DNA of 64,000 bases from Pararhodobacter aggregans (GTDB lineage: Bacteria > Pseudomonadota > Alphaproteobacteria > Rhodobacterales > Rhodobacteraceae), in assembly GCF_003075525.1 (NCBI RefSeq), contig NZ_QDDR01000007.1, positions 186,001 through 250,000 of the forward strand. The letters run 5' to 3'. Shown here one piece after another: positions 40,158 to 55,885 of the stretch. The translations under genes were made by a program, and so were the position numbers. Positions within the stretch are counted from its first letter, which is position 1. Every line of letters starts with the position of its first letter. The notes beneath the pieces were generated by a model. The model was not told where the DNA came from. It did no database searches and saw only the letters and a list, made by a program, of their open reading frames with translations.

Positions 40158-41534
40158 TCAGATCAGCACGAACAGGATGGCCGGAAACAGGATCAGCAGA
40201 CCGACCCGCACCACCTCGGCCGCGAAGAACATCGAGGCCCCGGCAAAGATGCGGCCCATCGGGGTCGAGGGGGTGATCGCGCCGATGATGAAGACATTCA
40301 TCCCCACCGGCGGGGTAATCAGCCCCAGTTCGATGACGATCAGCATCAGGATGCCGAACCAGATCTTCAACTCGTCCGGCCCGAGGCCAAAGGCCGCCTG
40401 ATCGGCGCTGACATAGGGCCCGCCGTTCACCGCCAGCATCACCGGCCACAGGAACGGCACGATGACCAGGATCATCGACAGCGATTCCAGGAAGCAGCCC
40501 ATGACGATCAGGCAGCCAAGGCAGATGACCAGCATGAGATAGGGGTCGATCGCGGCCGTTGCCGCCCAATCGGCCAGCCCCATCGGCAGGCCCGAGCGGG
40601 TGAAGAAGCTGGTCAGCACCGCCGCGCCGAAGAGGATGGCATAGATCATCCCCGAGGTGACGGCGGTGCTGAGCACCGCCTCGCGCAGGCCGCTCCAGGT
40701 CAGCCCGTCGCCGGTGATGAGCCGCCGTGCGGCGCCGTAGAGGATCACCGCCAAGGCACCGATGGCCGCCGCCGGGGTGGGCGTGAACAGACCGAAGGCC
40801 AGGCCGAAGATCAGCGCGCCGAAGATCCCGGCGACCGGCAGGAAGCGCAGCAGGGCGCGCAGACGGTCGGCCCGGGGCATCGGCGGGATGACCGGCGCGG
40901 CCTCGGGGCGCAGGCGGGTGTAGAGGGCGATGACCGCGACGAAGAAGACCACGGCGATCAGCCCCGGCAGGATCGCCGCGCGGAACAGGTCCAGGATCGA
41001 GGCCTCGACGATCACCCCATAGATGACCAGCGCCACCGAGGGCGGGATGAGGATGCCCAGCGTCCCGCCCGCCGCCAGCACCCCGGCGCTGAACCCGGGC
41101 GCGTAGCCGCCCTTCTTCAGTTCGGGCAGGGCGATCCGCCCCATGGCCGAGGCCGTTGCGGCCGAGGATCCGCAGACCGCCCCGAAGCCCGCGCAGGCGA
41201 CGATGGCCGAGATGGCCAGCCCGCCGCGCATCCGGCCGATCATCGCCTGGATGCCGTCGAACAGGTCGCGGCTGAGGCCCGAGAACCCCGCCACATAGCC
41301 CATCAGCACGAAAAGCGGGATGATGGTCAGGTCATAGCTCGCCATGCTTTCCCACAGCATCGACTTGAACTGCCGCAGATAGGGCTCGAACCGCAGGAAG
41401 GGGGCGACGATGCTCAGCGCGTAACTGCCGCCGAGGCCGACGGCGATCATCGCCACCACCACCGGAATACGCAGCAGGATCAGCAACAGCAGGACGCCCA
41501 GCCCCGCCAGCCCGGTAATTTCACGCGGGTCCAT
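40158..41534 (-). CDS. dctM: TRAP transporter large permease DctM
   Basis: A 458-residue membrane protein with about 12 helices and DctM signatures: IPLFVLMGYVAGFSGLSRDL, GFGAVCGSSAATASAMGRIA, GTLGILIPPSVALVIYGV and ELGLITPPVGMNVFII near the end. It drives sodium-coupled uptake of a carboxylate presented by the DctP protein. It overlaps dctQ by 14 bases. Confidence 0.94.
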   Translation of the reverse strand: MDPREITGLAGLGVLLLLILLRIPVVVAMIAVGLGGSYALSIVAPFLRFEPYLRQFKSMLWESMASYDLTIIPLFVLMGYVAGFSGLSRDLFDGIQAMIGRMRGGLAISAIVACAGFGAVCGSSAATASAMGRIALPELKKGGYAPGFSAGVLAAGGTLGILIPPSVALVIYGVIVEASILDLFRAAILPGLIAVVFFVAVIALYTRLRPEAAPVIPPMPRADRLRALLRFLPVAGIFGALIFGLAFGLFTPTPAAAIGALAVILYGAARRLITGDGLTWSGLREAVLSTAVTSGMIYAILFGAAVLTSFFTRSGLPMGLADWAATAAIDPYLMLVICLGCLIVMGCFLESLSMILVIVPFLWPVMLAVNGGPYVSADQAAFGLGPDELKIWFGILMLIVIELGLITPPVGMNVFIIGAITPSTPMGRIFAGASMFFAAEVVRVGLLILFPAILFVLI

Positions 41535-42027
41535 GCACGGCCTCCTCGCCTTTCAGCGCGTTCAGGGTCATCACCGCCGCGACCAGCGCCCAGAGCAGCA
41601 TCGACACCACGCCCGGCCAGTAGAACGGCCATTGCGGCCATTCGAGGATGCCGGTGGTCAGCCCGTCGCGCCGCACCTCCAGCGCGCCGATGGCCATCCA
41701 CCAGGCCAGGAACAGCGCGACGCCGGTGGTCAGCGCCTGGGCGATGACGCGGTTGACGCGGCCGATCCAGCGCGGCGCCGGGTCGATCAGCAGGCCGACC
41801 GCCACATGCCCGCCCCGCCATTGGCAGAGCGGGAAGAAGGCCAGCGCCGCGACGCTGGCCAGCAGTTTCACCACATCCTCGTAGCCGTAGATCCCCGGCA
41901 CCCGGATGTCCCAGCCGCGCAGCACCATGTCGGCGGCGAGCGCGCCGACATTCACCGCGGTCAGCGCGACGATCAGGGCCAGGCACAGCCCGCCGATCAT
42001 CGCCCAGAAATTGACCAGCGCGGTCAT
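41521..42027 (-). CDS. dctQ: TRAP transporter small permease DctQ
   Basis: A 168-residue four-helix membrane protein of the DctQ family (VPGIYGYEDVVKLLASVAAL, FFPLCQWRGGHVAVGLLID). The ATG at 42027 is used; a GTG one codon earlier is possible. It lies 9 bases after the dctP stop. Confidence 0.9.
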   Translation of the reverse strand: MTALVNFWAMIGGLCLALIVALTAVNVGALAADMVLRGWDIRVPGIYGYEDVVKLLASVAALAFFPLCQWRGGHVAVGLLIDPAPRWIGRVNRVIAQALTTGVALFLAWWMAIGALEVRRDGLTTGILEWPQWPFYWPGVVSMLLWALVAAVMTLNALKGEEAVHGPA

Positions 42028-42036
42028 CACGGCCGG

Positions 42037-43071
42037 TTACTCGCCGTGGACGGCGATGGCGGCGCGGGCCCGGGCGATCAGCCCCGCCCCGTCGATGCCC
42101 TGCCCCGCCACATCGGCGATCCAGCGCTGCGCCACCGCCTCGTCCGGGGCGCGGAAACTCTCCCAGGCTTCGGGGCTCAGCTGCACCACGGGCCGCGTCC
42201 GGGCCATCCGCGCCGCCATCTCGGCCTCGAACGCATCGAAACCCGCCCCGACCTCGGCAGCGATGGTCAGGCCGGAATTGGCGTCGATCACCGCGCGCAG
42301 ATCCTCGGGCAGGCTCTCGTAGCGCTCGCGGTTCATGGCAAAGAGGAAGACCATGGTTCCGGCCCGCGCGCCCTCCGGCCCCTCGACCGAGGCGCCGGTG
42401 ATCTCGGCCAGACCCATCGGGCCCGCGGCCTCGAAAGGCAGAAGCGCGCCCTCGACCGCGCCCCGCGACAGTGCCTGCGGCAGGTCGGGCACCGGCATGT
42501 TGACGGGTTCCGCGCCCCAGGCCTCGATCAGCCAGCCACCGATGCGCGAGGGGGTCCTGAGCCGCATTCCCTGCAGATCGCCGACGCCCCCGATCGCCCC
42601 GCCCCGCATGTGCAGCACATAGCCGGAATGGACATGGACCAGCAGCGGATGCACGTCCTGTAGATCCTCGGCCAGGTCGGGCATCAGGTCCTGAATGGCC
42701 AGCGTCGTCGCCTCGGCCGAGTTCTGGTGCACGCCCGGCAGTTCGAACACCTCGAGCCGCTTGAAGAGGCCGGGCGTGTAGCTGGGCAGCGTCCAGACGA
42801 TATCGGCCACGCCGTCGCGGACCTGGCGGTACAGCTCGGGCGCGGCGCCCCCCATCGACATGGCCGGATAGATCTCGACCGCGATGCGGCCGCCCGATTG
42901 CTCCTGCACGCGCTGGGCCCAGGGTTCCAGCAGCACCCGCTGGGCGGTGGAATTCGGCCCCAGGAAATGGTGAACGGTCAGCGTGACCTCTTGCGCCAGC
43001 GCCTGTCCGGCGGCGGAAAGGCCCAGCGCCAGCGCCAAGGCGGCGGCGAAACCCTTGGATTCGATGTGCAT
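42037..43071 (-). CDS. dctP: TRAP transporter substrate-binding protein DctP
   Basis: A 344-residue periplasmic protein with signal peptide (cleavage near ALA-QE). DctP features are VTLTVHHFLGPNSTAQ at the start, SPSYTPG-like substrate region (LPSYTPGLFKRLEVFELPG), and MRLRTPSRIGGWLIEAWGAE, whose Arg normally salt-bridges the ligand carboxylate. GGGGAGTGAG precedes the ATG. It is divergent from the BKACE operon and shares its regulatory region, so the imported compound is probably the BKACE pathway substrate. Confidence 0.93.
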   Translation of the reverse strand: MHIESKGFAAALALALGLSAAGQALAQEVTLTVHHFLGPNSTAQRVLLEPWAQRVQEQSGGRIAVEIYPAMSMGGAAPELYRQVRDGVADIVWTLPSYTPGLFKRLEVFELPGVHQNSAEATTLAIQDLMPDLAEDLQDVHPLLVHVHSGYVLHMRGGAIGGVGDLQGMRLRTPSRIGGWLIEAWGAEPVNMPVPDLPQALSRGAVEGALLPFEAAGPMGLAEITGASVEGPEGARAGTMVFLFAMNRERYESLPEDLRAVIDANSGLTIAAEVGAGFDAFEAEMAARMARTRPVVQLSPEAWESFRAPDEAVAQRWIADVAGQGIDGAGLIARARAAIAVHGE

Positions 43072-43143
43072 CTCTCACTCCCCGACTGATGCCGCGCCGG
43101 GTCCGATCCTCGGCGCCGGCTGGACCTTAGCGCAGCGCCACGT

Positions 43144-43167
43144 ATCGGATTACTGGCAATTTCCGAT
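43144..43167. promoter_or_regulatory. Degenerate third copy of the divergent-operon dyad
   Basis: ATCGGA and TCCGAT flank a 12-base spacer. The left half (TATCGG) matches the two good sites nearby but the right half is displaced, so it could be a secondary or activation site. Confidence 0.35.
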
Positions 43168-43173
43168 GCGAAC

Positions 43174-43190
43174 TATCGGCCAGACCGATA
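43174..43190. promoter_or_regulatory. NodD-type LysR operator proximal to dctP
   Basis: TATCGGCCAGACCGATA is a perfect dyad with TATCGG/CCGATA arms. Its inner 15 bases fit ATC-N9-GAT, the NodD-type LysR box, and also T-N11-A. It ends 103 bases from the dctP start codon. The NodD-like LysR gene at 45506 is the obvious candidate. Confidence 0.68.
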
Positions 43191-43229
43191 CGAAACCCAT
43201 CTGCGCACCGCCCCGATCCGGCAACCAAC

Positions 43230-43246
43230 TATCGGCCCGACCGATA
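43230..43246. promoter_or_regulatory. NodD-type LysR operator proximal to the BKACE operon
   Basis: TATCGGCCCGACCGATA repeats the dctP-side site with one central change and is extended to CTATCGG...CCGATAG. It ends 103 bases before the BKACE start, mirroring the other site exactly. The two centres are 56 bases apart. Confidence 0.68.
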
Positions 43247-43348
43247 GCTCGCGTCGAAAATACGGCGAAACGCTTTGCCGGGAAGGCGGCTAGGGTCCGG
43301 CCAACCGGGCCGCCCAGGCGGCCGCCGGTCCATCCAAGGGAGGTTCGC

Positions 43349-44236
43349 TTGAGCTCGAAACTGATCATCACCGTGGCGCCGACCGGGGGCATGGCCCCGA
43401 AAGAGGCCTCGCCGCATCTGCCCACCCAGCCGGACGAGATCGCCGCCTCGGTCACCGCCTCGGCCAGGGCGGGCGCCGCCATCGCCGCGCTGCACGCGCG
43501 CCGCCCCGACCATCTGGCGACCTGCAACCCGGACATCTACCGCGCCATCAACGACAGGGTGCGCGCGGGCTCGGACATCATCATCAACAACTCGACCGGC
43601 GGCGGCTCGACCGGCGACATGGTGATCGAACGCCCCGACGGCATCTGCGAGAACAATTTCGACGAACGCCTGAAGGGCACGATGGCGGGCGCCGAGATGT
43701 GCACCATGGACGCCTTCACCGCTGTCGATACCGTGGTCCCGGGCAAGGAATTGCTGGTCCTGACCACGCCCGCCCGCTGCGAGGTTCTGGCGCAAGCGAT
43801 GCAGGCCAAAGGCATCAAGCCGGAATGGGAGGTCTTCAGCCCCGCCCATATCATCAACGACGCCGTGCGCCTGATCCAGAAGGGCTATGACAAGCCGCCC
43901 TATTTCTTCAACTTCGTGCTCGGCGCGAACCGCAATTTCCAGGGCGCCATGCCCTATTCGCACGACATCCTCGAATCGATGATCAAGCTGCTGCCGCCCG
44001 GGTCGATCTGGAACATCTCGGCCATCGGCACGGCGCAGCTGGCGGGGACCACGCAGGCGATGCTCTGGGGCGGGCATGTGCGGGTCGGGCTGGAGGACAA
44101 CCTCTATTACGCCAAGGGCGAGAAGGCGACGAACGAGCAACTGGTCGCCCGCACCGTCCGCATCGCCAGCGAGTTGCAGCTCGACATCGCCACCCCGGCC
44201 GAGGCCCGCGCCATGCTGGGGCTGAAAGCGCCATGA
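43349..44236 (+). CDS. BKACE-family beta-keto acid cleavage enzyme (DUF849)
   Basis: A 295-residue TIM-barrel enzyme. Family members react a beta-keto acid with acetyl-CoA to give acetoacetate and a new acyl-CoA. Visible signatures are IITVAPTGGMAPKEASPHLP, STGGGSTGDM and the metal/catalytic block HVRVGLEDNLYY (Arg, Glu, Asp). The usual HxH zinc motif reads ALH in IAALHARRPD, so the first His is Ala. I recall close relatives sharing this change, so it may mark a subgroup. Translation starts at TTG 43349, supported by AAGGGAGG 6 bases upstream. It is the first gene of BKACE-thioesterase-cyclase-LysR. The substrate is unknown. Confidence 0.88.
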   Translation: MSSKLIITVAPTGGMAPKEASPHLPTQPDEIAASVTASARAGAAIAALHARRPDHLATCNPDIYRAINDRVRAGSDIIINNSTGGGSTGDMVIERPDGICENNFDERLKGTMAGAEMCTMDAFTAVDTVVPGKELLVLTTPARCEVLAQAMQAKGIKPEWEVFSPAHIINDAVRLIQKGYDKPPYFFNFVLGANRNFQGAMPYSHDILESMIKLLPPGSIWNISAIGTAQLAGTTQAMLWGGHVRVGLEDNLYYAKGEKATNEQLVARTVRIASELQLDIATPAEARAMLGLKAP

Positions 44237-44673
44237 GCGGGACGGCGCTGGTCTGCACGACCGAACGGCTGGTGGCGTGGAGCGAATGCGACCCCGCCGG
44301 GATCGTCTATTACCCCCGCTACGCCGAGATGTGCGACGCCAACACCAACGCGCTCTTTGCCCAGGCCACGGGTCTGGGCAAGCGCGAGACGCAGGCGCGC
44401 TACGGAATTGTCGGCTGGCCGATGGTCTCGTCCGGCCAGCGCTATCTGAAGCCCGCGACCTATGGCGACGTGGTGCGGGTCAGCAGCCGGGTGCTGCGGT
44501 TCGGGGGCTCGTCCATCGAGCTCTCGCACCGGATCGAGCATCGGGACGGCAGCCCGATTGCCGAACTGACCGATACCCGCGTCTGGGCGGTGCCCCATCC
44601 CGAGAAGCCGGGCGCCATCAAGGCCGCAAAGCTGCCCGCCGATTTCACCGCCTGTTTCTTTACCGAAGGGTGA
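44233..44673 (+). CDS. Acyl-CoA thioesterase of the 4HBT hot-dog family
   Basis: A 146-residue hot-dog protein with the catalytic signature WSECDPAGIVYYPRYAEMCD. It overlaps the BKACE stop by ATGA, so its natural substrate is probably the acyl-CoA released by the BKACE step. The same pairing occurs in carnitine degradation, where the thioesterase hydrolyses betainyl-CoA. No carnitine dehydrogenase gene is present here. Confidence 0.86.
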   Translation: MSGTALVCTTERLVAWSECDPAGIVYYPRYAEMCDANTNALFAQATGLGKRETQARYGIVGWPMVSSGQRYLKPATYGDVVRVSSRVLRFGGSSIELSHRIEHRDGSPIAELTDTRVWAVPHPEKPGAIKAAKLPADFTACFFTEG

Positions 44674-44675
44674 CC

Positions 44676-45446
44676 ATGAGCCGCCTGATCGACCTGTCCG
44701 TCGCGCTGAAAGCCGGGATCGCCTCGGACCCGCCGCATATGCTGCCGAAGATCGACTATCTCGACCATGCCAAGGGGGCCGAGGAATTCGCCATGCTGTT
44801 CCCCGGCCTTGCCCCGGCGGACCTGCCGGGGGGCGCCGGGGCGGCCATCGAATGGGTGACGATGACCACCCATAACGGGACGCATATGGACGCGCCCTGG
44901 CATTTCCACCCGACGATGGACGGCGGCGCCCCGGCGCTGACCATCGACCAGATCCCGCTCGACTGGTGCTACGGGGCGGGGGTGAAGCTCGATTTCCGCG
45001 ACCGGCCGGACGGGCATGTCTGCTCGGCCGCCGAGGTGCAGGCGGAACTGGCGCGGATCGGGCACCGGCTCGCGCCGTTCGACATCGTGCTGGTCAACAC
45101 CGCGGCGGGCGCGGCCTATGGCCAGCCGGATTTCCTGGACCGGGGCTGCGGGCTGGGGCGCGAGGCGACGCTGTGGCTGCTGGAACAGGGCGTGCGCGTG
45201 ACCGGCACCGACGCCTGGAGCTGGGACGCCCCCTTCCGCCACACCCGCGAGCGCTTCGCCGCTTCCGGCGATCCCTCGATCATCTGGGAGGGGCACAAGG
45301 CCGGGATGGAGCGCGGCTATTGCCATATGGAGAAGCTGACCAATCTGCCCCTGCTGCCCGCCACCGGCTTTCGGGTCAGCGCCTTCCCGGTCAAGGTCGA
45401 GGGGGCCTCGGCCGGCTGGGTGCGGGCGGTGGCGCATCTGCCGTGA
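44676..45446 (+). CDS. Cyclase-family metal hydrolase (KynB/isatin hydrolase fold)
   Basis: A 256-residue protein with the metal-binding HNGTHMDAPWHFHP motif (HxGTHxDxPxH), and later GTDAWSWDAPF and WEGHKAGMERGYCHMEKLTN. The fold hydrolyses amides or lactams, as in kynurenine formamidase (to kynurenine) and isatin hydrolase (to isatinate). Either would eventually give anthranilate, which the operon at 48.6-55.8 kb can degrade, but this link is speculative. It starts 2 bases after the thioesterase stop. Confidence 0.85.
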   Translation: MSRLIDLSVALKAGIASDPPHMLPKIDYLDHAKGAEEFAMLFPGLAPADLPGGAGAAIEWVTMTTHNGTHMDAPWHFHPTMDGGAPALTIDQIPLDWCYGAGVKLDFRDRPDGHVCSAAEVQAELARIGHRLAPFDIVLVNTAAGAAYGQPDFLDRGCGLGREATLWLLEQGVRVTGTDAWSWDAPFRHTRERFAASGDPSIIWEGHKAGMERGYCHMEKLTNLPLLPATGFRVSAFPVKVEGASAGWVRAVAHLP

Positions 45447-45505
45447 CCCATTGACAGCGCGCCCGGCCTTTGCCCCCTTGGAGCCCGGGCGCGCGGAGAG
45501 ACTGC

Positions 45506-46414
45506 ATGCGGTTCAAGGGGCTCGACCTCAATCTGATGGTGGCGCTGGACCATCTGCTGACCGAGCGCAATGTCTCGCGCGCGGCGGACAAGCTGTTCCT
45601 CAGCCAATCCGCCACCTCGGGCGCGCTGGCCCGGCTGCGCGAATTCTTCGGCGACGATCTCTTGGTGCCGGTCGGCCGCAAGATGACCCTGACGCCCCGG
45701 GCGCAGGAACTGGCCGTGGCGATCCGCGCGGCGCTGATGCAGATCGAGACGACGATCATCGAACAGCCGCGGCTGGACCTGTCGACCGCCCGGCGCAGCC
45801 TGCGGGTCATCACCTCGGATTACGTGGGGATCGCCTTTTTCGCCCGCGTCGTGCAGTCGATCCAGGCCGAGGCCCCGGGGATCAGTTTCACTTTCGTGAC
45901 CCCCTCGTCCGACGCGACGCGCCAGATCGCCCGGGGGCAGGTCGACCTTGCGGTGATGCCGGAACGGTTCCTGGCGCCCGACCATCCCTCGCACCTGCTC
46001 TTCGCCGATGGCTATGCGGTGATTGTCGACGCGCAGAACGCCCGGGTGGGCGAGGCGCTGGATCTGGAGACCTTCATGGCCCTGCCGCAGGTCTCGGTCC
46101 AGCTGATCGACGGGCCGCCCAGCTACGAGACGGCGCTGGCCGACCGCTTCGGCAACAGCCGGGTGATCGACGTGCTGGCGACGAATTTCTCCAGCGTGCC
46201 GTTCTTCGTGCTGGGCACGCAGCGGGCGGCCATCGTCCACCAGCGGCTGGCGCAGATCGTCTGCGCGATGATGCCGCTGCGGATGTACCCGCCGCCGATG
46301 CCCCTGCCCGAGCTGAGGATCGCCCTGCAATGGCACCAGCTGGCCGATGGCGACCCGCTCCTGCGCCATGTCCGCACCCGGATCCTGGAGATCGCCGCGG
46401 CCGAGGGTCTCTGA
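45506..46414 (+). CDS. NodD-like LysR-family transcriptional regulator
   Basis: A 302-residue LysR protein whose N-terminus (MRFKGLDLNLMVALDHLLTE, then ADKLFLSQSATSGALARLRE) is strikingly NodD-like. The ligand domain follows from about residue 90. It lies 59 bases after the cyclase gene, with its own GGAG, and ends 2 bases before the convergent monooxygenase stop. The ATC-N9-GAT dyads at 43174 and 43230 match the NodD-type box, so it probably controls both dctPQM and the BKACE operon. Confidence 0.9.
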   Translation: MRFKGLDLNLMVALDHLLTERNVSRAADKLFLSQSATSGALARLREFFGDDLLVPVGRKMTLTPRAQELAVAIRAALMQIETTIIEQPRLDLSTARRSLRVITSDYVGIAFFARVVQSIQAEAPGISFTFVTPSSDATRQIARGQVDLAVMPERFLAPDHPSHLLFADGYAVIVDAQNARVGEALDLETFMALPQVSVQLIDGPPSYETALADRFGNSRVIDVLATNFSSVPFFVLGTQRAAIVHQRLAQIVCAMMPLRMYPPPMPLPELRIALQWHQLADGDPLLRHVRTRILEIAAAEGL

Positions 46415-46416
46415 CC

Positions 46417-47628
46417 TCAGCCGCCCGCCTTGGTGAACCCGGCGATGCGGCGGTAATTGGCGGCCACCTCGTCCAGCTCGGCCTGGGTAATCAGATCCTC
46501 GATCCGGTCCTGCGGCCCGGTGACCCGCGCGGCAGCGATATCCAGCACCTGCTCGGGCCCGCCCAGCCGGTTGGCGCGCACCACATTGGCAGCGATGGGC
46601 AGGCGCGCCTCCTCGTAGGCGCGCAGCCCCAGGGGACCGGGCGCCGCCGTCAGCGCATCGGCCAGCGCGCGGGCGTCCAGCACCGCCTGGCTCGCGCCAT
46701 TGGCGCCGATCGGGTACATCGGATGCGCGGCATCGCCCAGCAGCGTCACGCGCCCCTCGGTCCAGAAGGGCAGCGGGTCACGGTCGATCATCGGGAATTC
46801 CGTCACGATCTCCGTGGCTTCCAGAATCGCGGCGATATCCATGTCGGGCATCTGGAAGGCGCGGAACGGGGTGATGTAATCCATCGTCGCCCCCCGCCGC
46901 CAATCGGCGTCGTCGATGTGGCGCGGGGCGGAATGGCGGATCTCGGCCACCCAATTGGTCAGCGCGCGACCCTTCCGGCGGGCCTGTTCGCTGATCGGAT
47001 AGGTCACGAACTTGCAATCGTGATCCCCGGCGATGACCATCGTGCGGCCGTCGCCGATCATCGGCATCTCGACCGCGCCACGGAACATCATCGTGCCCTC
47101 GTAATTGAGCGGCCCGTCACCCGGATGCATCTGTGCCCGGATCGGCGAGCGCAGCCCCTCGGCCCCCACCACCAGATCGCCCCGCAGGCTGCTGCCATCG
47201 GCGAACAGCACCTCGGCGCCCGCCGCATCCTGCCGGTAGCCGGTGACCGGGCGCCCGGTCTCGACCGCGCCCGCCCCGGCCCGCGCCCGCAGCGCATCGA
47301 GCAGCAGGAACTGCAGCTCGCCCCGGTGGATCGAGTATTGCGGCGCCGGGAAACCCGCCGCCATGTTGCGCGGATCGGACTGGATCAGATGGCCGAAGCG
47401 CGTGCGGTACTCGATGCAGCGGGTCTGGATGGCCATGGCATCCAGCGCCTCGGTCAGGCCCAGACCGCGCAGGATCCCTGAGGCCGAGGACATGACGTTG
47501 ATGCCGACACCCAGCGGCCGGATCTCGGCCACGGATTCGAGGACCTTCACCTCGAAACCCGCCTCATGCAGGCAGAGCCCCGCCGTCAGCCCGCCGATCC
47601 CGCCCCCGGCAATGATGATCTTGACCAT
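46417..47628 (-). CDS. FAD-dependent aromatic monooxygenase (PhzS-like)
   Basis: A 403-residue group A flavin monooxygenase. FAD fold IIIAGGGIGGLTAGLCLHEAG, then IRPLGVGINVMSSASG, QYSIHRGELQFLLLDALR, YEGTMMFRGAVE, PMIDRDPLPFW and the FAD-ribityl motif GDAAHPMYPIGANGASQAV. These blocks are shared with PhzS (5-methylphenazine-1-carboxylate 1-monooxygenase), and salicylate hydroxylases are more distant. Probably a decarboxylating or simple hydroxylation of an aromatic or heteroaromatic acid. It is divergent from the AraC gene, its likely regulator. Confidence 0.86.
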   Translation of the reverse strand: MVKIIIAGGGIGGLTAGLCLHEAGFEVKVLESVAEIRPLGVGINVMSSASGILRGLGLTEALDAMAIQTRCIEYRTRFGHLIQSDPRNMAAGFPAPQYSIHRGELQFLLLDALRARAGAGAVETGRPVTGYRQDAAGAEVLFADGSSLRGDLVVGAEGLRSPIRAQMHPGDGPLNYEGTMMFRGAVEMPMIGDGRTMVIAGDHDCKFVTYPISEQARRKGRALTNWVAEIRHSAPRHIDDADWRRGATMDYITPFRAFQMPDMDIAAILEATEIVTEFPMIDRDPLPFWTEGRVTLLGDAAHPMYPIGANGASQAVLDARALADALTAAPGPLGLRAYEEARLPIAANVVRANRLGGPEQVLDIAAARVTGPQDRIEDLITQAELDEVAANYRRIAGFTKAGG

Positions 47629-47752: not shown

Positions 47753-48634
47753 ATGACGCGCCCCTATCTCGACCGTCACCGCTTCGTCCTCGGCGATGCC
47801 TCGGCGCATCTGGGCTTCCTGCATTGCGAGCGGCTGGCGGCGCGCAGCCATATCCATGACTGGTCGGTCGAGGCGCATTTCCACGAGGGCCTGTCGCAGG
47901 TGCTGGTCTTTGCGGGTGGCGTTGTCGAGGCGCTGGTCGACCACAGCCCGGCCCGGATCGAGGGGCCCGCCGTGCTCTGGCTGCCGGCGCTGTGCAGCCA
48001 TGCCTTCCGCTATCCCGTGGGCATGCAGGGCTGGTCGATCACGCTGCCCGCCAGCGACACCGCCCGCATCGCCGCCGAGGCGCCGTGGCTGGACAGCTGG
48101 ATCGCCCGTCCGCAGGTGCTGTCAGGACCGGGCCTGACCGAAACGCTGCTGCCCCTCGTCGCCCGGATCGAAGGCGAGAGCACCGGCACCAGCGCCGACC
48201 GCAGCATGGCGCTTGAGGCGCTGTTCCGGCTTCTGCTGATCGAGATGGGGCGCGGGCTGGCGGCCGAGGGCGCGGCCGCCACCGGCATCGCCGGGCGCAA
48301 GCAGCAGCTGGTCGCGCGCTTCCAGCGGCTGGTGGACGAAACCGCCCCCCTGCCCGACGCCGCCGCGCTGGCCCGCAGCCTGTCGGTCACGCGCACGCAT
48401 CTGACCCGGGCGATCCGCGAGGTCACCGGCCGCACCGCCAGCGAGATCCTGGCCGAACAGCGGGTGCTGCGGGCCCGCCGCAGCCTGGCCTTCAGCCCCG
48501 AGCCGATCAGCGCCATCGCCTATGAGCTGGGGTTCTCCAGCCCGTCCTATTTCACCCGCTTCCTGGTGGCCCGGACCGGCGAAACGCCCAGCGCCTTCCG
48601 CCAGCGCTTTCGCCGGGGCCTGACCGCGGGTTAG
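47753..48634 (+). CDS. AraC-family transcriptional regulator
   Basis: A 293-residue regulator with an N-terminal cupin-like sensing domain (about 1-150: SHIHDWSVEAHFHEGLSQ) and a C-terminal double helix-turn-helix (about 190-290: LARSLSVTRTHLTRAIREVT, then ISAIAYELGFSSPSYFTRFL). The layout is PobR-like, as in activators of aromatic hydroxylase genes. It is divergent from the PhzS-like monooxygenase with 124 bases between starts. An upstream in-frame extension overlaps that gene and is rejected. Confidence 0.88.
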   Translation: MTRPYLDRHRFVLGDASAHLGFLHCERLAARSHIHDWSVEAHFHEGLSQVLVFAGGVVEALVDHSPARIEGPAVLWLPALCSHAFRYPVGMQGWSITLPASDTARIAAEAPWLDSWIARPQVLSGPGLTETLLPLVARIEGESTGTSADRSMALEALFRLLLIEMGRGLAAEGAAATGIAGRKQQLVARFQRLVDETAPLPDAAALARSLSVTRTHLTRAIREVTGRTASEILAEQRVLRARRSLAFSPEPISAIAYELGFSSPSYFTRFLVARTGETPSAFRQRFRRGLTAG

Positions 48635-49035
48635 GCTTTCGGGGCGATGTAGGCCGTGGCCTCGATCTCCAGAAGCGCCTCGTCCTCGACCAGATCCTTG
48701 ACCACGACCAGCGACATGGCCGGGAAATGCTTGCCCAGCACCCGGCGATAGGCCGCCCCGATCTCGCGCTGATGGGCGAGGTAGGTGGCCTTGTCCTTGA
48801 CGAACCAGGTCAGGCGGCCGATGTCGCCGGCCTCGCCGCCCGCGGCCTGGACCACGGCCAGGATATTCGCCAGCACCTGTTCCATCTGGCCGATGAAATC
48901 CTTGGCGACGAAGACCTTGTCGGCGTTCCAGCCGATCTGGCCGCCGACATGCAGCGTGCCGTCGGCCATCAGCATGCCATTGGCATAGCCCAGCGCCGGG
49001 GCCCAGCCCTCGGGGTGAATGACGGTCGGTTTCAT
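48631..49035 (-). CDS. RidA/YjgF-family protein
   Basis: A 134-residue Rid protein (HVGGQIGWNADKVFVAKDFI, ILAVVQAAGGEAGDIGRLTW, ending LLEIEATAYIAP). The arginine needed for imine deamination in canonical RidA (the PAR motif) appears as Met in FPAMSLVVVKDL, so it belongs to another Rid subgroup. It is the last gene of the 2-aminobenzoyl-CoA operon, 22 bases after the ligase. Since that pathway passes through a cyclic enamine, enamine/imine hydrolysis would make sense but is not proven. Confidence 0.86.
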   Translation of the reverse strand: MKPTVIHPEGWAPALGYANGMLMADGTLHVGGQIGWNADKVFVAKDFIGQMEQVLANILAVVQAAGGEAGDIGRLTWFVKDKATYLAHQREIGAAYRRVLGKHFPAMSLVVVKDLVEDEALLEIEATAYIAPKA

Positions 49036-49057
49036 GGTGGTACTCCGGTTGACTGGC

Positions 49058-50677
49058 TCAGCCCGACTGACGCAGGCGGAAACGCTGGATCTTGCCCGTT
49101 TCGGTCTTGGGCAAGGCGCGTGTGAAGATGATGGAACGGGGATATTTATAGGGCGCGATGGTCGCCTTGACGTGCTCTTGCAGAAGCTTGGCCAGCGCGT
49201 CGGACGGTGTCTCGCCCGCGCCCAGCACGATATGCGCCTCGACGATGGTACCGCGCGCCTCATCCGGCACGCCGATCACCGCGCATTCCGCCACCGCCGG
49301 GTGGGCAAGGAGCGCCGCCTCCACCTCGGGCCCGGCGATGTTGTAGCCGGCCGAGACGATCATGTCGTCGTTGCGCGCGGCGAAGTGGAAATAGCCATCG
49401 TGATCCATCACGAAGGTGTCGCCGGTGATGTTCCAGCCGTTCTGCACGTATTCGCCCTGCCGGTCACCATAGAGGTAGCGGCAGCCGGTCGGCCCCTTGA
49501 CCGCCAGCCGCCCCGGCTCGCCGGGCGGCAGTTCCGCGCCATCGGGGCCGATCACGCGGGCCTCGTACCCGGTGACCGGCTTGCCGGTGCAGGCCGGGCG
49601 GTGGTCGGTGAAGCGGTTGGTGACGAAAATATGCAGCATCTCGGTGGCGCCGATCCCGTCGAGCATCGGCTTGCCGGTCTTGGCCATCCATTCGTCATAG
49701 ACCGGGCCCGGCAGCGTCTCACCGGCCGAGACGGCGGCGCGCAGCGAGGACAGGTCCGCCCCCTCGTCCATCGCCCGCATCATGGCGCGATAGGCGGTGG
49801 GCGCGGTGAAACAGACCGTCGCCCGGTATTTCTGGATGATCTCGATCATGTTGGGCGGGGTGGCGTTCTCCAGGAGCGTCGCGGCAGCGCCGAAGCGCAG
49901 CGGGAAGATGGCGAGGCCCCCGAGGCCGAAGGTGAAGGCCAGGGGCGGCGAGCCCACGAAGATATCCTCGGGCACCACGCCCAGCACTTCGCGGGCATAG
50001 CCATCGGCGACGATCAGGAGATCGCGGTGGAAATGCATCGTGGCCTTGGGTTTCCCGGTCGAGCCCGAGGTGAAGCCAATGAGCGCCACATCGTCCTGCG
50101 CGGTCTGCACCGCCTCGAAAGTCACCGGCTTTTCCAGCGCCAGCCGGTCCAGTTCCGCGTCATGGTTCGAGGTGCCGTCGAACCCCACCACCGTCTTCAA
50201 CCAGGGGCTGTCCTTGGCGCAGGCGGTGAGTTCATCCATCAGCCGCGTGTCGCACAGCGCATGGGTGATCTGCGCCGCCTCGACATATTTCGCCAGCTCG
50301 CCGGACCGCAGCATCGGCATGGTGTTGATGACCACCGCCCCCGCCTTGGTCGCCGCCAGCCAGCAAGCCACCATCGCCGGGTTGTTGGCCGAGCGGATCA
50401 GCACCCGGTTGCCGGGCTTCACGCCCAGATCCTCGACCATGGCGCGGGCCAGACGGTTGGTCCAGTCGGCCAGTTCCTTGTAGGTCCGCCGCCGCCCGTT
50501 GCCGATCAGCGCCGTGCGGTCGCCAAAGCCCTTGGCAACCATGGTATCGGTCATCTCGACGCCTGCGTTCAGCCGGTCGGGATAGTCGAACCCCTCGAGC
50601 CGCAGCTCGGGCCAGGCCTCCAGGGGCGGCAGGTTGTCGCGCGTGAAGCTGTCGACATGGGCGGAGGGTCTCAGCAT
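49058..50677 (-). CDS. Aryl-CoA ligase, probably 2-aminobenzoate-CoA ligase
   Basis: A 539-residue acyl-adenylate-forming ligase: P-loop IGFTSGSTGKPKATMHFHRD, SAGETLPGPVYDEW, A5 DGIGATEMLHIF, hinge region ITGDTFVMDHDGYFHFAARN and C-terminal Lys in LPKTETGKIQRFRL. It belongs to the benzoate/2-aminobenzoate-CoA ligase group. Position in an operon with the 2-aminobenzoyl-CoA monooxygenase/reductase strongly suggests it activates anthranilate; salicylate is the main alternative. Confidence 0.88.
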   Translation of the reverse strand: MLRPSAHVDSFTRDNLPPLEAWPELRLEGFDYPDRLNAGVEMTDTMVAKGFGDRTALIGNGRRRTYKELADWTNRLARAMVEDLGVKPGNRVLIRSANNPAMVACWLAATKAGAVVINTMPMLRSGELAKYVEAAQITHALCDTRLMDELTACAKDSPWLKTVVGFDGTSNHDAELDRLALEKPVTFEAVQTAQDDVALIGFTSGSTGKPKATMHFHRDLLIVADGYAREVLGVVPEDIFVGSPPLAFTFGLGGLAIFPLRFGAAATLLENATPPNMIEIIQKYRATVCFTAPTAYRAMMRAMDEGADLSSLRAAVSAGETLPGPVYDEWMAKTGKPMLDGIGATEMLHIFVTNRFTDHRPACTGKPVTGYEARVIGPDGAELPPGEPGRLAVKGPTGCRYLYGDRQGEYVQNGWNITGDTFVMDHDGYFHFAARNDDMIVSAGYNIAGPEVEAALLAHPAVAECAVIGVPDEARGTIVEAHIVLGAGETPSDALAKLLQEHVKATIAPYKYPRSIIFTRALPKTETGKIQRFRLRQSG

Positions 50678-50722
50678 CTCGGGTCTCCTGTTGGATCACG
50701 CCGGGTTTTCCCGGTCATGCGG

Positions 50723-51868
50723 TCATTTCTGATGGGCGGCGAGCGTCTGGCGGGCGATCACCACCCGCTGCACGTCCGACGCGCCCTCGTAGATCCTCAG
50801 CGCGCGGATCTCGCGGTAAAGGCTCTCGACCATCTGGCCATGGCGCACGCCATCGCCGCCGTGCAATTGCAGCGCCCGGTCGATGACCTGCTGCGCCTGA
50901 TCGGTGGCGAAAAGCTTGGCCATCGCCGCCTCGCGCGTGACCCGGGGGGCGCCCGAATCCTTGGTCCAGGCGGCGCGGTAGACCAGCAGCGCCGAGGCGT
51001 CGACATCGACCGCCATGTCGGCGATATGCCCCTGCACCATCTGCAACTCGAACAGCGGCGCGCCCTGCACCTGCCGGCTCGTCACCCGGTCCAAAGCCTC
51101 ATCCAGCGCCCGGCGGGCAAAGCCCAGCGCGGCGGCGGCGACGGACGAGCGGAACACATCCAGCACCGACATGGCGATGCGGAACCCCTGCCCCGGCCCG
51201 CCGATCATGGCGCTGGCCGGCACCCGGCAATCGGTGAAGCGCAGCCGGGCGAGGGGATGGGGGGCGATCGTTTCCAGCCGCTCGACCACCTCGAAGCCGG
51301 GCAGGTCGGGGGTGACGATGAAGCACGACAGCCCCTTGGCGCCCGGCGCCTCGCCGGTGCGGGCAAACAGCGTGTAGACATCGGCGATGCCACCGTTCGA
51401 GATCCAGGTCTTCTCGCCGTTCAGGACATAATCATTGCCGTCCCGCGTGGCGGTCATGGTGGAATTGGCCACGTCCGAGCCCGATTGCGGCTCGGTCAGC
51501 GCGAAGGCCGAGATCGCCTCGCCGCCCCGGGTCAGCGGCAGCCAGTCGGCGCGCTGTTCCTCGGTCCCGAAGAGCGAGATCGCCCCGGTCCCCAGCCCCT
51601 GCATGGCAAAGGCGAAATCCGCCAGCCCATCGTGGCGCGCCAGCGTCTCGCGGATCAGACAGAGGCTTCGCACATCGAGCCGCCCGTCCGGCGCCCCCGA
51701 ATGCGCGGCGATCCCGGCCGCGCCCATCGCCGTCACCAGCGCCCGGCAGGCCGCATCGGTATCCGCGTGGTCGATGTCCAGCCCGGCGGCGAAATCCTCG
51801 ACCTCCGCCGCCAGCGCCCGATGCCTTTCCTCGAAGAACGGCCAGTCCAGAAAGCTCCGATCCGCCAT
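50723..51868 (-). CDS. Acyl-CoA dehydrogenase
   Basis: A 381-residue flavoprotein with [43 protein letters not shown] and a [20 protein letters not shown] end. The usual catalytic-base Glu of the YEG motif is present. In the 2-aminobenzoyl-CoA pathway it would oxidise an alicyclic or ring-opened acyl-CoA. The ATG at 51868 (GGAG upstream) is preferred to an in-frame TTG at 51883. Its upstream region contains a copy of the genome repeat. Confidence 0.9.
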
Positions 51869-51952
51869 ATCACTTTGCTCCAAATACGCACGGGGGTTCT
51901 CAGGGGGAGCGTGCTCCCCCTGAGCGGGGGGTGCGGGGGGCTGGCCCCCCGC
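51866..51952 (-). repeat. Intergenic repeat, copy D, with two hairpins
   Basis: On the minus strand, downstream of the crotonase gene, come GCGGGGGG/CCCCCCGC (51952-51933), then CTCAGGGGGAGC with its complement (51924-51899), then CCCCCGTGCGTATTTGGAGC and AAAGTGATATG. The last part matches the CCCCCGGAGGATATTTGCAG core of the other copies, and the ATG is the acyl-CoA dehydrogenase start. The hairpins could uncouple expression inside the operon. Confidence 0.7.
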
Positions 51953-51955
51953 CTT

Positions 51956-52747
51956 TCAATCGCCCTGAAACACCGGCTTTTCCTTCTTCACGAAGGCCTC
52001 GTAGGCCCGGGTGAAATCCTGTCCCTGCATGCAGATCGCCTGGGCCTGGGCCTCGGCCTCGATGGCCTGTTCCAGCCCCATCGACCATTCCTGCGCCAGC
52101 ATGGTCTTGGTCATCATGTTGGCGAAATTCGGTCCCTCGGCGATGCGCCGGGCGAACTCGCCCGCGGTGGCCATCAGCTGATCGGGTTCGACCACGCGGT
52201 TGAAGAAGCCCCAGTTGTAGCCCTCTTCGGCCGTCATCGCGCGGCCCAGATACAGCAGTTCCGCCGCCCGGCCCTGACCGATGATGCGCGGCAGGATCGC
52301 GCAGGCGCCCATGTCGCAGCCCGCAAGCCCCACGCGGTTGAACAGGAACGCGGTCTTCGCCGAGGGCGTCGCCACCCGCAGGTCGGACGCCATGGCGATG
52401 ATTGCGCCCGCGCCCGCGCAGACCCCGTCCACCGCGGCGATGATCGGCTTGCCGCAGCCGATCATGGCTTTGACCAGATCGCCGGTCATGCGGGTGAAGG
52501 CCAGAAGCTCCTTCATGCTCATCCGGGTCAGCGGCCCGATGATGTCATGCACATCACCGCCCGAGCTGAAATTCCCGCCGTTCGGGGCGAAGATCACCGC
52601 CTTGACCGTATCATCATAGACCAGCCCCCGGAACCAGTCGCGCAGTTCCGCGTAGCTGTCGAAGGTCAGCGGGTTCTTGCGTTCGGGCCGGTCGAGCGAG
52701 ACGGTGGCGATGCCGTTTTCGATGCTGAGAAGGAAGTGCTGGGGCAT
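51956..52747 (-). CDS. Crotonase-fold protein, possible ring-opening hydrolase
   Basis: A 263-residue enoyl-CoA hydratase/isomerase-family protein: [10 protein letters not shown] oxyanion loop, [20 protein letters not shown] and [20 protein letters not shown]. Neither hydratase glutamate is at its expected place (GAGAI instead of GGGCE; FNRVG instead of GQPEI). An Asp in GCDMGA aligns with the catalytic Asp of MenB/BadI-type crotonases. BadI hydrolyses a 2-oxocyclohexane-carboxyl-CoA ring, so a ring-cleavage role fits this operon. It starts 11 bases after the SDR stop. Confidence 0.86.
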
Positions 52748-52758
52748 GGGTGCTCCTG

Positions 52759-53478
52759 TCAGATTTCGCCGCCCGAAAGGCTCAGCGCGTGTCCGTTGAT
52801 CATGCGCGCCTCGGGCGAGGCGAGGTAGAGGGCGGCGCTGGCCACCTCGTCGGGGCGGATCAGCCCGCCGATGGGGTTGCCGCTGGCGACCATGGCCTCG
52901 GCCTTGGCGCGGTCGAGGCCCTTCTTCGCCATCAGACCCTCGATGGCGGTCTGGGCCAGAGGCGTATCGACGAAGCCCGGGCAGATCGCGTTGCAGGTGA
53001 TGCCCTGTTTCGCCACCTCCTGCGCGACCGAGCGCACCAGCCCCAGCACCCCGTGCTTGGCCGAGGCATAGGCGGCAATCGCCGCGCCCCCCTTCAGGCT
53101 GGCGGTCGAGGCGATGGCAATGAGCCGTCCGCCCGGCTGCATGCCGTTCAGCGCCGCGCGGAAGGTCAGGAAGGTGCCGGTCAGCGTTACCGCCAGCGTG
53201 TCGTTCCATTGCGCCAGCGTGGTGTCGCGCAGCTTGGCGGCGGGGCCGCCGCCCGCATTGGCGATCACTACGTCGAAGGGCTGGTCGAACAGCGCCGCGA
53301 CCTGCGCCTCGTCCGTCACGTCGGCCTGCCGCAGGGTCATGGCGAAGCCTTCCGCCGTTTCCTGCAACGCATCCAGACGCCGCCCGCAGATCGTCACGGC
53401 ATCGCCCGCTTCCGCGAAGGCCCGGGCGATGGCGCGGCCGATGCCCGACCCGCCGCCGGTGACCAGAACGCGCCTCAT
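52759..53478 (-). CDS. SDR-family 3-hydroxyacyl-CoA-type dehydrogenase
   Basis: A 239-residue short-chain dehydrogenase with all active-site parts: [22 protein letters not shown], Ser in [10 protein letters not shown] and the YASAK catalytic pair, then [11 protein letters not shown]. Coupled by ATGA to the monooxygenase/reductase gene, it probably oxidises or reduces an alicyclic hydroxy/oxo-acyl-CoA intermediate. Confidence 0.9.
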
Positions 53479-55772
53479 GCCCGGATCGTCTCGGCTTCGC
53501 GGTCGGCCAGCCGCCAGGCCTGATCGCGCCCGTTGAGATAGGGCATCGGCCAGTCGGGCGCGGTGCGGTCGCCGATGCGGGTCGCCTCGTGCAGGGTCCA
53601 GTAGGGGTCGTTCAGATGCGGGCGGCCCACCGCCACCAGATCGGCGCGGCCCGCCATCAGGATCGAGTTGGCGTGGTCGGCCTCGGAGATATTGCCGACC
53701 GCCATGGTGCGGATCCCGGCCTCGTTGCGGATCCGGTCGCTGAACGGCGTCTGGAACATGCGGCCATAGACCGGGCGAGCCTCGATGGTGGTCTGGCCGG
53801 CCGAGACGTCGATCAGATCGGCGCCCGCTTCGGTGAACATCCGCGCGATTTCAACGGCTTCCGAGGGGGTCACACCCGCGTCGCCCACCCAGTCGTTGGC
53901 CGAGATACGGACCGACATCGGCGTGCCTTCCGGCACCACGGCGCGCATCGCCGCGAAGACCTCCAGCGGCCAGCGCATGCGGTTTTCCAGCGAGCCGCCG
54001 TAGTCGTCCCTGCGCTGGTTCGACGTGGGCGAGATGAAGGACGACACGAGGTATCCATGCGCCGCGTGCAGCTCGATCATGTCGAAGCCCGCGCGAACCG
54101 CCATTTCGGTGGAGGCCACGAATTCGGCCTTCACCTGATCCATCTCGGCCCGCGTGATCTCGCGCGGCATGGCGTTGCGCTTGGACCAGGGCAGGGCCGA
54201 GGCGCTGACCAGATCCCAGTTCCCGCTGTCGAGCGGCAGGTCGATGCCCTCCCAGCCAAGGTTGGTCGAGCCCTTGCGCCCCGAATGGCCGATCTGGCAG
54301 CAGATCCTGGCATCCGTCTCGGCATGGACGAAAGCGGTCAGGCGCTTCCACGCGGCTTCGTGTTCCGGCGCATAGAGGCCGGGGCAGCCGGGGGTGATCC
54401 GGCCCTCGGGCGAGACGCAGGTCATCTCGGTATAGACGAGGCCCGCGCCGCCCTTGGCCCGTTCGCCGTAATGGATCAGGTGCCAATCGGTCGGGCAGCC
54501 GTCGACGGCCTTGTATTGCGCCATGGGCGAGACGACGATGCGGTTCTTCAGCGCCATGTCGCGCAGCTGGAACGGCGCGAACATCGGCGCGCGCAGCGGC
54601 GCATCGGGCGCGGCGCCGGCGGTGTTCTGGAACCAGCGTTCGGCGCTTTGCAGCCATTCGGGGTCGCGCAGGCGCAGGTTCTCATGGCTGATCCGCTGCG
54701 AGCGGGTCAGCAGCGAATAGTTGAACTGCACCGGGTCGAGATCGAGGTAACGCTCGACTTCCTCGAACCATTCCAAGGAGTTGCGCGCCGCCGACTGCAG
54801 GCGCAGCACTTCCAGACGACGCTCGGCCTGGTAGCGCTCGAACGCCGCTTCCATGGTCGGTTCGGAATGCAGGTAATCGGCCAGCGCGATGGCGCTGTCG
54901 AAAGCCAGCCGAGAGCCCGAGCCGATCGAGAAATGCGCCGTGGCCGAGGCATCGCCCAAGAGCACGACATTCTCATGGTGCCATTTCTCGCACAACACGC
55001 GGGGGAAGTTCATCCACACGGCCGAGCCCCGCAGATGGTTGGCGTTCGACATCAGCTCATGCCCGCCCAGATGCGACGCGAAAACCTCGCGGCATTTCTC
55101 GACGATCTCTTCCTTCGACATGCCTTCGAAGCCGAATTTCTCCCAGGTGTCCTGGGCACATTCGACGATGAAGGTCGCGGTATCGGCGTCGAATTGGTAA
55201 ACGTGGGCCCAGATCCAGCCGTGATCCGTCTTCTCGAAGATGAAGGTGAAGGCGTCGTCGAATTTCTGATGCGTGCCCAGCCAGATGAACTTGCAGGCCC
55301 GCAGCTCCACGTCCGGCTTGAAAACCTCGGCATATTCCTGACGCACGCGGGAGTTGATGCCGTCGGCGCCGACCACCAGATCGTAATCCTTGCGGTATTC
55401 CTCGGCCGTCTTGAACTCGGTCTCGAAACGCAGCTCCACCCCCAGCTCGCGGGCGCGTTGTTGCAGCAGGATCAGCATCTGCTTGCGGCCGATGCCGGCA
55501 AAGCCATGCCCGCCGGAAACGGTGCGCACCCCGTCATGGATCACCGCGATATCGTCCCAATAGGCGAAATGCGAGCGGATCGCCTCGGCGCTGGTCGGGT
55601 CGTTCTGCGCCAGATTGGACAGCGCGTCGTCGGACAGCACCACCCCCCAGCCGAAGGTGTCATTGGCGCGGTTGCGCTCGATCACCACCACTTCGTGCGC
55701 GGGATCGCGCAGCTTCATCGAAATGGCGAAATACAGGCCGGCGGGACCGCCGCCAAGACAGGCTACACGCAT
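53475..55772 (-). CDS. 2-aminobenzoyl-CoA monooxygenase/reductase (or salicylyl-CoA 5-hydroxylase) fusion flavoprotein
   Basis: A 765-residue two-domain enzyme. Residues 1 to about 380 are a group A FAD monooxygenase ([57 protein letters not shown]). From about 395 to the end is an old-yellow-enzyme FMN domain ([46 protein letters not shown]). This fusion is the hallmark of Azoarcus 2-aminobenzoyl-CoA monooxygenase/reductase, which hydroxylates and then reduces the ring to 2-amino-5-oxocyclohex-1-ene-carboxyl-CoA. It is the first gene of a six-gene operon and divergent from marR. Confidence 0.9.
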
Positions 55773-55885
55773 GGATCGTCCCTCGCTCAACGCGGACATG
55801 GCGGGGCCGGGCCCCGGCAGAGGACCGGATCGACCCTCCGCTTCGGGACTCAGGAAAGCACCATTCGGGGCACGTTTCAACATTA

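Follow-up and report, generated by a model that had tools for sequence, protein, structure and literature searches.

A Nine-Gene Insertion in Pararhodobacter aggregans Encoding a BKACE-Family Protein with an Altered Zinc Site and a Probable Aroylacetate Substrate

Introduction

In Sphingobium sp. SYK-6, VceA and VceB convert hydroxyphenyl-beta-ketopropionates to hydroxybenzoates (PMC9618137). VceA is the vanilloylacetate (VAA)-converting enzyme on the route from vanilloylacetate to vanillate (PMC11837543, PMC9618137), and VceB is a thioesterase for vanilloyl-CoA and syringoyl-CoA (PMC11837543). A similar pair of genes was recognized in a stretch of 64,000 nucleotides from Pararhodobacter aggregans (contig NZ_QDDR01000007.1, positions 186,001 to 250,000), designated here as the window. 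One gene encodes a protein of the beta-keto acid cleavage enzyme (BKACE) family, to which VceA presumably belongs as well, and the other encodes an aroyl-CoA-type thioesterase. The two genes are adjacent and overlapping in the window. They are part of a block of nine genes that adds a cyclase-fold hydrolase, a tripartite ATP-independent periplasmic (TRAP) importer, and a flavin monooxygenase (FMO) to what is seen in VceA/VceB. On balance, this block is considered to be an acquired module that imports and degrades hydroxylated aromatic acids, from aroylacetate via hydroxybenzoate to hydroxyquinol.

A first-pass annotation of the locus counted only two known contexts of BKACEs and left the substrate open. 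The VceA/VceB pair is a third context that it missed, and aromatic-pathway genes are found around a number of relatives of the BKACE. The substrate is probably an aroylacetate, for which more than one ring substitution pattern would fit.

The Hpe acetophenone pathway (HpeHI-CBA-D) includes a carboxylase and a phosphatase (PMC9618137). The block in the window contains no acetophenone carboxylase, and therefore, the beta-keto acid must arise otherwise. Genes similar to those for the carboxylase and the phosphatase of the Hpe/Acv acetophenone carboxylation are found on plasmid pBAR1 of Sphingomonas bisphenolicum (L055), where a close relative of the BKACE (70% identity) and a thioesterase (40%) are located next to genes for a biotin carrier, a biotin carboxylase, a carboxyltransferase, and a HAD phosphatase. 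An HpeHI-type kinase was not identified in this neighborhood, and a UPF0261 gene is present at that place.

TarP binds coumarate, ferulate, and caffeate with Kd values in the nM range (PMC3610893). The solute-binding protein DctP from the window shares its family with TarPQM of Rhodopseudomonas palustris, and the P, Q, and M components are encoded together in the window. Isatin hydrolase and the arylformamidase KynB share the family PF04199 and the motif HxGTHxDxPxH with the cyclase-fold hydrolase, whereas the latter reaches only 31 bits with the arylformamidase model TIGR03035 (cut-off 223.05) and an E-value of 4e-4 with isatin hydrolase. No published description of this gene set was found among the titles and abstract openings of the listed papers on BKACE, hydroxyquinol, and 4-hydroxycoumarin/chromone.

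Insertion of a Nine-Gene Block

The host genome is 5.08 Mb in 32 contigs (G000), and the window is on contig C7. In the nearest sampled relative (genome G789, locus L096), the homology with the window stops at position 40164 on the left side and restarts at 48643 on the right side. The two flanks are separated by only 22 bp in G789, and P. aggregans has 8,478 bp extra; thus, the segment 40165-48642, from DctM to AraC with nine genes, is one insertion. Its left junction coincides with the DctM stop codon. In G789, a thioredoxin-like gene (recognized by eye), which precedes DctM in the window, directly neighbors the RidA gene that follows AraC in the window. The block was apparently acquired horizontally as one piece. 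At E <= 1e-60, the BKACE was found in only one of the 394 sampled genomes of the family, which is its own genome, and at 1e-100 in three of the 385 sampled genomes of the class, its own genome among them.

In 19-kb stretches from six further genomes of the genus, the genes for RidA, ligase, acyl-CoA dehydrogenase, enoyl hydratase, short-chain dehydrogenase/reductase (SDR), and hydroxylase, which adjoin the block in the window, are all present, and no matches to the BKACE, cyclase, FMO, or AraC genes were found. Matches to DctP (25%) and DctM (38%) in one stretch (L098) and to the thioesterase (29%) in another (L101) are, judged by their identities, too distant to represent the block. The base composition across the window shows no clear break at the block.

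The block begins with the TRAP importer genes on the minus strand: DctM, the large permease (40158-41534; PF06808, 254 bits), DctQ, the small permease (41521-42030; PF04290, 61 bits), and DctP, the solute-binding protein (42037-43071; PF03480). All three Pfam families score above their cut-offs in one gene run, while the NCBIfam dctM and dctP models score under their cut-offs, just under in the case of DctM. Divergent from these genes, the plus strand encodes the BKACE (DUF849; 43349-44236, with a TTG start; PF05853, 261 bits, cut-off 24.8), the hot-dog thioesterase, which is 4-hydroxybenzoyl-CoA thioesterase-like and contains an ECDPAG motif (44233-44673; PF13279, 4HBT_2), the cyclase-fold metal hydrolase (44670-45446; PF04199, 128 bits), and a LysR regulator (about 45506-46414, with an ATG start; PF00126 and PF03466). 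BKACE and thioesterase genes overlap by 4 bases, as do thioesterase and cyclase genes. The FMO gene (46417-47628, minus strand; PF01494; NF005720, 475 bits, cut-off 400), whose product is predicted to convert hydroxybenzoate to hydroxyquinol, is convergent with LysR, and the AraC regulator gene (about 47753-48634, plus strand) lies beyond it.

DctPQM, BKACE, thioesterase, cyclase, and LysR had all been named in the first-pass annotation, and the Pfam scores above the cut-offs confirm them. Its span of 42037-46414 holds DctP to LysR, but DctQ and DctM are outside, and FMO and AraC were omitted. The latter two count as members of the unit because both are inside the same insertion.

A BKACE Clade Lacking One Zinc Ligand

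The relatives of the BKACE at 51-82% identity form one group in the tree with support values of 100/99. The row nearest to the window BKACE is from the plasmid pAt1D1609a of Agrobacterium tumefaciens 1D1609 (L052), followed by L008, L053, L054, and L055. At position 46 of Kce, Ala is observed in all 40 rows of this group and His in all 25 remaining rows of the tree; the group is designated as the Ala46 clade. As read from the alignment, the clade is without the first His of the zinc-binding HxH motif, one of the three protein zinc ligands.

In BsfD, another DUF849 protein, the required zinc is held by His48, His50, and Glu247 (PMC12871164). The equivalents in the window BKACE are Ala47, His49, and Glu249 in an alignment through Kce and 3c6c, via which the HxH equivalence was drawn, BsfD itself being outside the alignment. 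Instead of the complete HxH plus Glu set, the window BKACE has Ala47 in place of the first His, and it keeps the second zinc His and the Glu of the GLEDN motif. The catalytic base of PdKce is E171 (PMC11961710). This Glu appears to be kept as Glu161 in the window BKACE, given the equivalence of PdKce E171 to Kce E143 suggested by the numbering. Tyr is stated for all BKACEs at Kce position 145 (PMC12871164), whereas Phe is observed at this column in the window BKACE, in 37 of the 40 clade rows, and in 18 of the 29 other rows (duplicates and L007 counted). On this count, Phe does not separate the clade from other BKACEs. Further clade-specific residues are Arg52, Asn68, Asn81, Asp121, Thr139, and Trp160 in the window numbering. 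At the column of Kce Glu14, which we take to be the amine-recognition residue, the window BKACE has Met, and it reaches only 226.3 bits with the Kce equivalog model (cut-off 382). Both agree with the exclusion of a role in lysine fermentation by the first-pass annotation.

The predicted structure of the BKACE (pLDDT 94.1) was compared again with its Foldseek matches, and the comparison with 8rip gave a Z score of 40.8 and a root-mean-square deviation of 1.3 over 277 residues. The window BKACE shares the fold (Z 38.9-40.8 in the 13 top rows), the second zinc His, the GLEDN Glu, and the catalytic-base Glu with the solved BKACEs; it differs from them by Ala at the first zinc His, by Met at Kce Glu14, and by an identity of only 29-36%.

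Six of the 35 plasmid BKACE records were used (H1, H2, H3, H5, H6, and H9), together with L066 from the cyclase search. L005, L051, L060, L069, and L076 were excluded as duplicates, and L006, L050, L105, and L115 were also not included. L007, which has an in-frame TGA, is in the residue tables and not in the tree, as are L081-L083, which duplicate L058, L059, and L061. Warnings from the tree program concerned long branches within the His46 rows and L040, which joined the clade; the tree includes all of these rows. The Ala46 feature was not met in the literature, where it was sought only through a zinc/Kce search. While the individual parts are of known kinds, the altered zinc site of the BKACE clade and its partnership with the cyclase are new.

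The host genome has seven BKACE matches. One of them, L007 (contig C26:9146-9952), is probably a decayed gene in view of its in-frame TGA.

Genes around the Relatives

A comparison of gene neighborhoods, proposed by the first-pass annotation, was run, and aromatic-pathway genes were found around the relatives of the BKACE, the FMO, and DctP. The A. tumefaciens plasmid carries the BKACE, thioesterase, and cyclase genes in the same order as the window, with FMO and AraC genes next to them in the same orientation. The identities to the proteins from the window are 81% for the BKACE, 57% for the thioesterase, 71% for the cyclase, 64% for the FMO, and 44% for the protein of the annotated AraC gene adjoining the FMO gene. 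This plasmid has extra genes that are absent from the block: genes for a maleylacetate reductase (MAR) and an intradiol-type dioxygenase adjoining the FMO gene, molybdenum-hydroxylase genes upstream, and a non-orthologous TRAP set. LysR is present in the block and not in the plasmid cluster. The dioxygenase matches catechol 1,2-dioxygenase models under their cut-offs.

A fixed panel of genes from the window, L052, L055, L056, L065, and L069 was searched for in 39 clade loci, which include the near-copies L018/L070, L026/L071, and L054/L055. A salicylyl-CoA-hydroxylase-like gene was found in 13 loci, a thioesterase in 11, a cyclase in three, beta-oxidation genes in three, and a molybdenum-hydroxylase subunit, a gentisate dioxygenase, and an acetophenone-carboxylase-like gene in two each. 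L011 and L056 have a whole set of ligase, beta-oxidation, BKACE, hydroxylase, thioesterase, gentisate dioxygenase, and FAH genes. Among the close tree rows, L054 and L055 carry acetophenone-carboxylase-like genes, and L053 has no aromatic gene in its annotated neighborhood. Sphingobium sp. SYK-6 has four BKACEs, one of which belongs to the Ala46 clade and is 64-65% identical to the window BKACE; its gene at 2.674 Mb is far from the acetophenone-carboxylase homologue (0.674 Mb) and the nearest thioesterase (1.359 Mb).

In Alphaproteobacteria, L016, L018, L020, L021, L024-L027, L070, and L071 are compact sets of a BKACE gene and a salicylyl-CoA-hydroxylase-like gene, joined by a thioesterase gene in L016, L018, L020, and L070. 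These sets perhaps represent a separate pathway of the aroylacetate-to-gentisate type.

Eleven plasmid relatives of the FMO were found with 95-96% coverage and 63-69% identity, and in all six regions viewed, MAR and intradiol-type dioxygenase genes are within about 6 kb. Contig C16 of the host encodes an intradiol dioxygenase and a MAR with 74% and 51% identity to those from L052, besides three more dioxygenase matches at 42%. Because MAR and dioxygenase genes are near the FMO relatives and on contig C16, hydroxyquinol is the likely FMO product. The dioxygenase and MAR from C16 may be specific for the hydroxyquinol route.

The best PDB match of DctP is 5im2 (3.3e-66), and the matches 7nsw, 7nrr, and 7nr2 are presumably TarP structures. 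Among the papers listed for the PDB codes of the DctP matches, none was relevant by title. DctP matched 32 plasmid records, four of which were viewed: one locus has pobA, another has pobA, pcaHGC, and a BKACE gene, a third has FMO, MAR, and dioxygenase genes, and the fourth has peptidase genes. Hydroxybenzoate or MAR/dioxygenase genes are thus beside three of the four DctP relatives, as neighbors of relatives only, and DctP is a probable aromatic-acid binder. A single-sequence fold model of DctP was discarded (pLDDT 39).

The best PDB match of the thioesterase is the 4-hydroxybenzoyl-CoA thioesterase 1bvq (1e-12). The cyclase contains the HxGTHxDxPxH motif, which binds metal, as HNGTHMDAPWH at residue 68. 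Of its 98 plasmid records, 12 regions were viewed; a BKACE gene is present in L052, L066, and L105, and an FAH-family gene in L067, L068, L106, L109, and L110. In two further loci, L012 and L023, a cyclase gene is near a BKACE gene. These neighbors would fit a hydrolase that opens its substrate to a keto acid for subsequent C-C cleavage. The amide or lactam opening suggested by the first-pass annotation is neither backed nor contradicted by the findings, and a lactone or ester is tentatively preferred here as the cyclase substrate.

In L066 (Chelatococcus sp. CO-6) and L105 (Paracoccus denitrificans), the same cyclase subfamily is near BKACEs of another type, and the Chelatococcus BKACE keeps the zinc His. 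The BKACE from L105 was considered as the assayed BKACE15 and rejected, as its match to 8rio (364 bits) ranks third after 3e49 and 3e02. Since it is another protein, the substrates of BKACE15 were not carried over to L105. On contig C15 of the host (L080, 5949-10451), a second TRAP set is followed by a cyclase gene whose product is ~67% identical to that of the block, and the contig ends soon after.

Regulatory Sequences

The gap between the divergent DctP and BKACE genes is 277 bp long and contains the palindrome TATCGG-N5-CCGATA twice, with starts 56 bp apart: TATCGG-CCAGA-CCGATA at 43174-43190 and a second copy at 43230-43246. No further site with fewer than two mismatches was found elsewhere in the window. 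These candidate operators suit a LysR-type site pair, and their position in the divergent gap speaks in favor of a co-regulation of the cluster. The promoter scan gave no sigma-70-like site (0.7 in shuffles) and four terminator-like sites (2.8 in shuffles).

Genes outside the Block

The genes adjoining the right side of the block (48631-55799) encode RidA, a ligase, an acyl-CoA dehydrogenase, an enoyl hydratase, an SDR, and a bifunctional salicylyl-CoA 5-hydroxylase/oxidoreductase. The bifunctional protein reaches 1286 bits with the model of that name (cut-off 1078) and is 97% identical to its counterpart from G789. The best model for the ligase is the benzoate-CoA ligase family, with 359 bits just under the cut-off of 375. 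The hydroxylase of this cluster is present in 17 of the 18 genomes of the genus, the own genome counted. Judged by these matches, the cluster is a genus-core pathway for aminobenzoyl- or salicylyl-CoA outside the inserted block.

Genes for a UbiD-family decarboxylase and a UbiX-family flavin prenyltransferase, each above the cut-off of a subfamily model, are located at 56638-58532. At 63121-63861, behind a peptide ABC transporter set, an open reading frame resembles an Asp/Glu-racemase-type protein by eye.

Discussion

From the observed gene content, the single insertion, the conserved partners, the homology, and the residue pattern, we infer the reactions, the ring substitution, the cyclase step, and the regulation as follows. 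The TarPQM-like TRAP permease would import an aromatic carboxylate, and the imported acids are most likely hydroxylated aromatics such as plant-derived ones. The cyclase-fold hydrolase would yield the beta-keto acid from a cyclic or esterified precursor. The BKACE would convert the aroylacetate (Ar-CO-CH2-COO-) and acetyl-CoA to acetoacetate and aroyl-CoA, and the 4HBT-like thioesterase would free the hydroxybenzoate from aroyl-CoA; the same order of BKACE and thioesterase chemistry was proposed in the first-pass annotation and is consistent with the protein families. The FMO would hydroxylate the hydroxybenzoate, probably with decarboxylation, to hydroxyquinol. Each of 2,4-, 2,5-, and 3,4-dihydroxybenzoate gives hydroxyquinol through decarboxylative hydroxylation. 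The intradiol dioxygenase and MAR encoded on contig C16 would cleave hydroxyquinol, and the whole would be controlled by LysR, via the paired palindromes, and by AraC.

Several observations weigh against this pathway. One zinc ligand is absent across the clade, and the BKACE activity is thus only predicted. VceA was not matched to any of the SYK-6 BKACEs, its locus being absent from the available text of PMC11837543 and PMC9618137. At least one panel gene was found in 21 of the 39 clade loci and in none of the 11 control BKACE loci, but L052, L055, and L056 necessarily match a panel that was drawn in part from them. The control set is small, consists of distant relatives, and includes some short stretches (4.2-16.9 kb). 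The other 18 clade loci, including L013 from SYK-6, are without any panel gene in the stretch examined. The hydroxylase-like genes were checked with the two-domain model in L056 and L020 only; they reach 371 and 425 of 1078 bits and match just its N-terminal half. The TRAP set from L052 is not orthologous to that of the block (DctM 32%), and the DctP relative L116 lies among peptidase genes. In the plasmid regions viewed for the cyclase, only three of 12 contain a BKACE gene, and four contain neither a BKACE gene nor an FAH-type gene. No gene for ring cleavage is located within the block.

The missing ligand could also mean that the Ala46 subfamily lost the canonical zinc site and catalyzes another CoA/keto reaction, such as decarboxylation or acyl transfer without cleavage. 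The strict split between Ala in the clade and His elsewhere in the tree supports this, and zinc is catalytically required in BsfD, a DUF849 protein with other chemistry (PMC12871164). It is nevertheless unlikely, given that the second His, the GLEDN Glu, and the Glu aligned to PdKce E171 are all kept, and that an aroyl-CoA product would suit the thioesterase and aroyl-CoA-hydroxylase-like genes that accompany the BKACE in several lineages. Less likely again is a non-aromatic beta-keto acid as the substrate, with the aromatic neighbors of the relatives being incidental. BKACE15 from P. denitrificans accepts beta-ketohexanoate and 3,5-dioxohexanoate, among others (PMC11961710), and the clade loci devoid of panel genes point in the same direction; against this, the relatives of three parts of the block (BKACE, FMO, and DctP) are each found among aromatic-pathway genes, and the FMO belongs to the PF01494 aromatic hydroxylases.

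The proximity of the core cluster raises the question of whether the block feeds it: the cyclase would convert 2,4-dihydroxyquinoline to 2-aminobenzoylacetate, the BKACE would convert this to 2-aminobenzoyl-CoA, and the cluster at 48631-55799 would degrade it. The scores of the adjacent bifunctional protein and ligase suit such a substrate, and clade BKACEs elsewhere adjoin related hydroxylase-like genes. However, G789 has the cluster without the block, the closest BKACE relative (L052) has MAR and intradiol-type dioxygenase instead, and the thioesterase would break a CoA ester that the ligase then rebuilds. Coupling to this cluster is improbable and was rejected as the main explanation, as the cluster is core to the genus and the block is a separate insertion. 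Cleavage of dehydrocarnitine or 3-keto-5-aminohexanoate is hardly credible. A BKACE and a hot-dog thioesterase presumably occur in carnitine catabolism as well, but the Kce equivalog score and the Met for Kce Glu14, both from the BKACE itself as the only gene tested on this point, speak against this role, in which the FMO and the aromatic contexts would have no part.

Returning to the aroylacetate pathway, a bolder version of low probability is proposed tentatively. The Ala46 clade may be a new BKACE subfamily with a remodelled metal site that acts on aroylacetates, often ortho-hydroxylated ones because a salicylyl-CoA-hydroxylase-like gene is present in 13 of the 39 clade loci. The cyclase would be a lactonase, and lactonase, BKACE, thioesterase, and FMO would together convert chromone or 4-hydroxycoumarin rings to hydroxyquinol by a route as yet undescribed. 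A molybdenum hydroxylase of the L052 kind would convert chromone to a 4-hydroxycoumarin-type lactone, which the cyclase would open; this activity of the cyclase is a bolder guess from the chemistry. Hydrolysis of 4-hydroxycoumarin gives 2-hydroxybenzoylacetate, an acid expected to suit cleavage by a BKACE. 4-Hydroxycoumarin is known as a fungal product of o-coumarate (PMC12388069).

With these results, a vague unassigned pathway is narrowed to a testable set of aroylacetates, and the clean insertion defines the nine genes that travel together. The enzymes may be useful for lignin-derived aromatics, which have aroylacetates among their intermediates (PMC9618137, PMC11837543). The BKACE subfamily with its changed zinc site could reveal how retro-Claisen chemistry tolerates the loss of a metal ligand.

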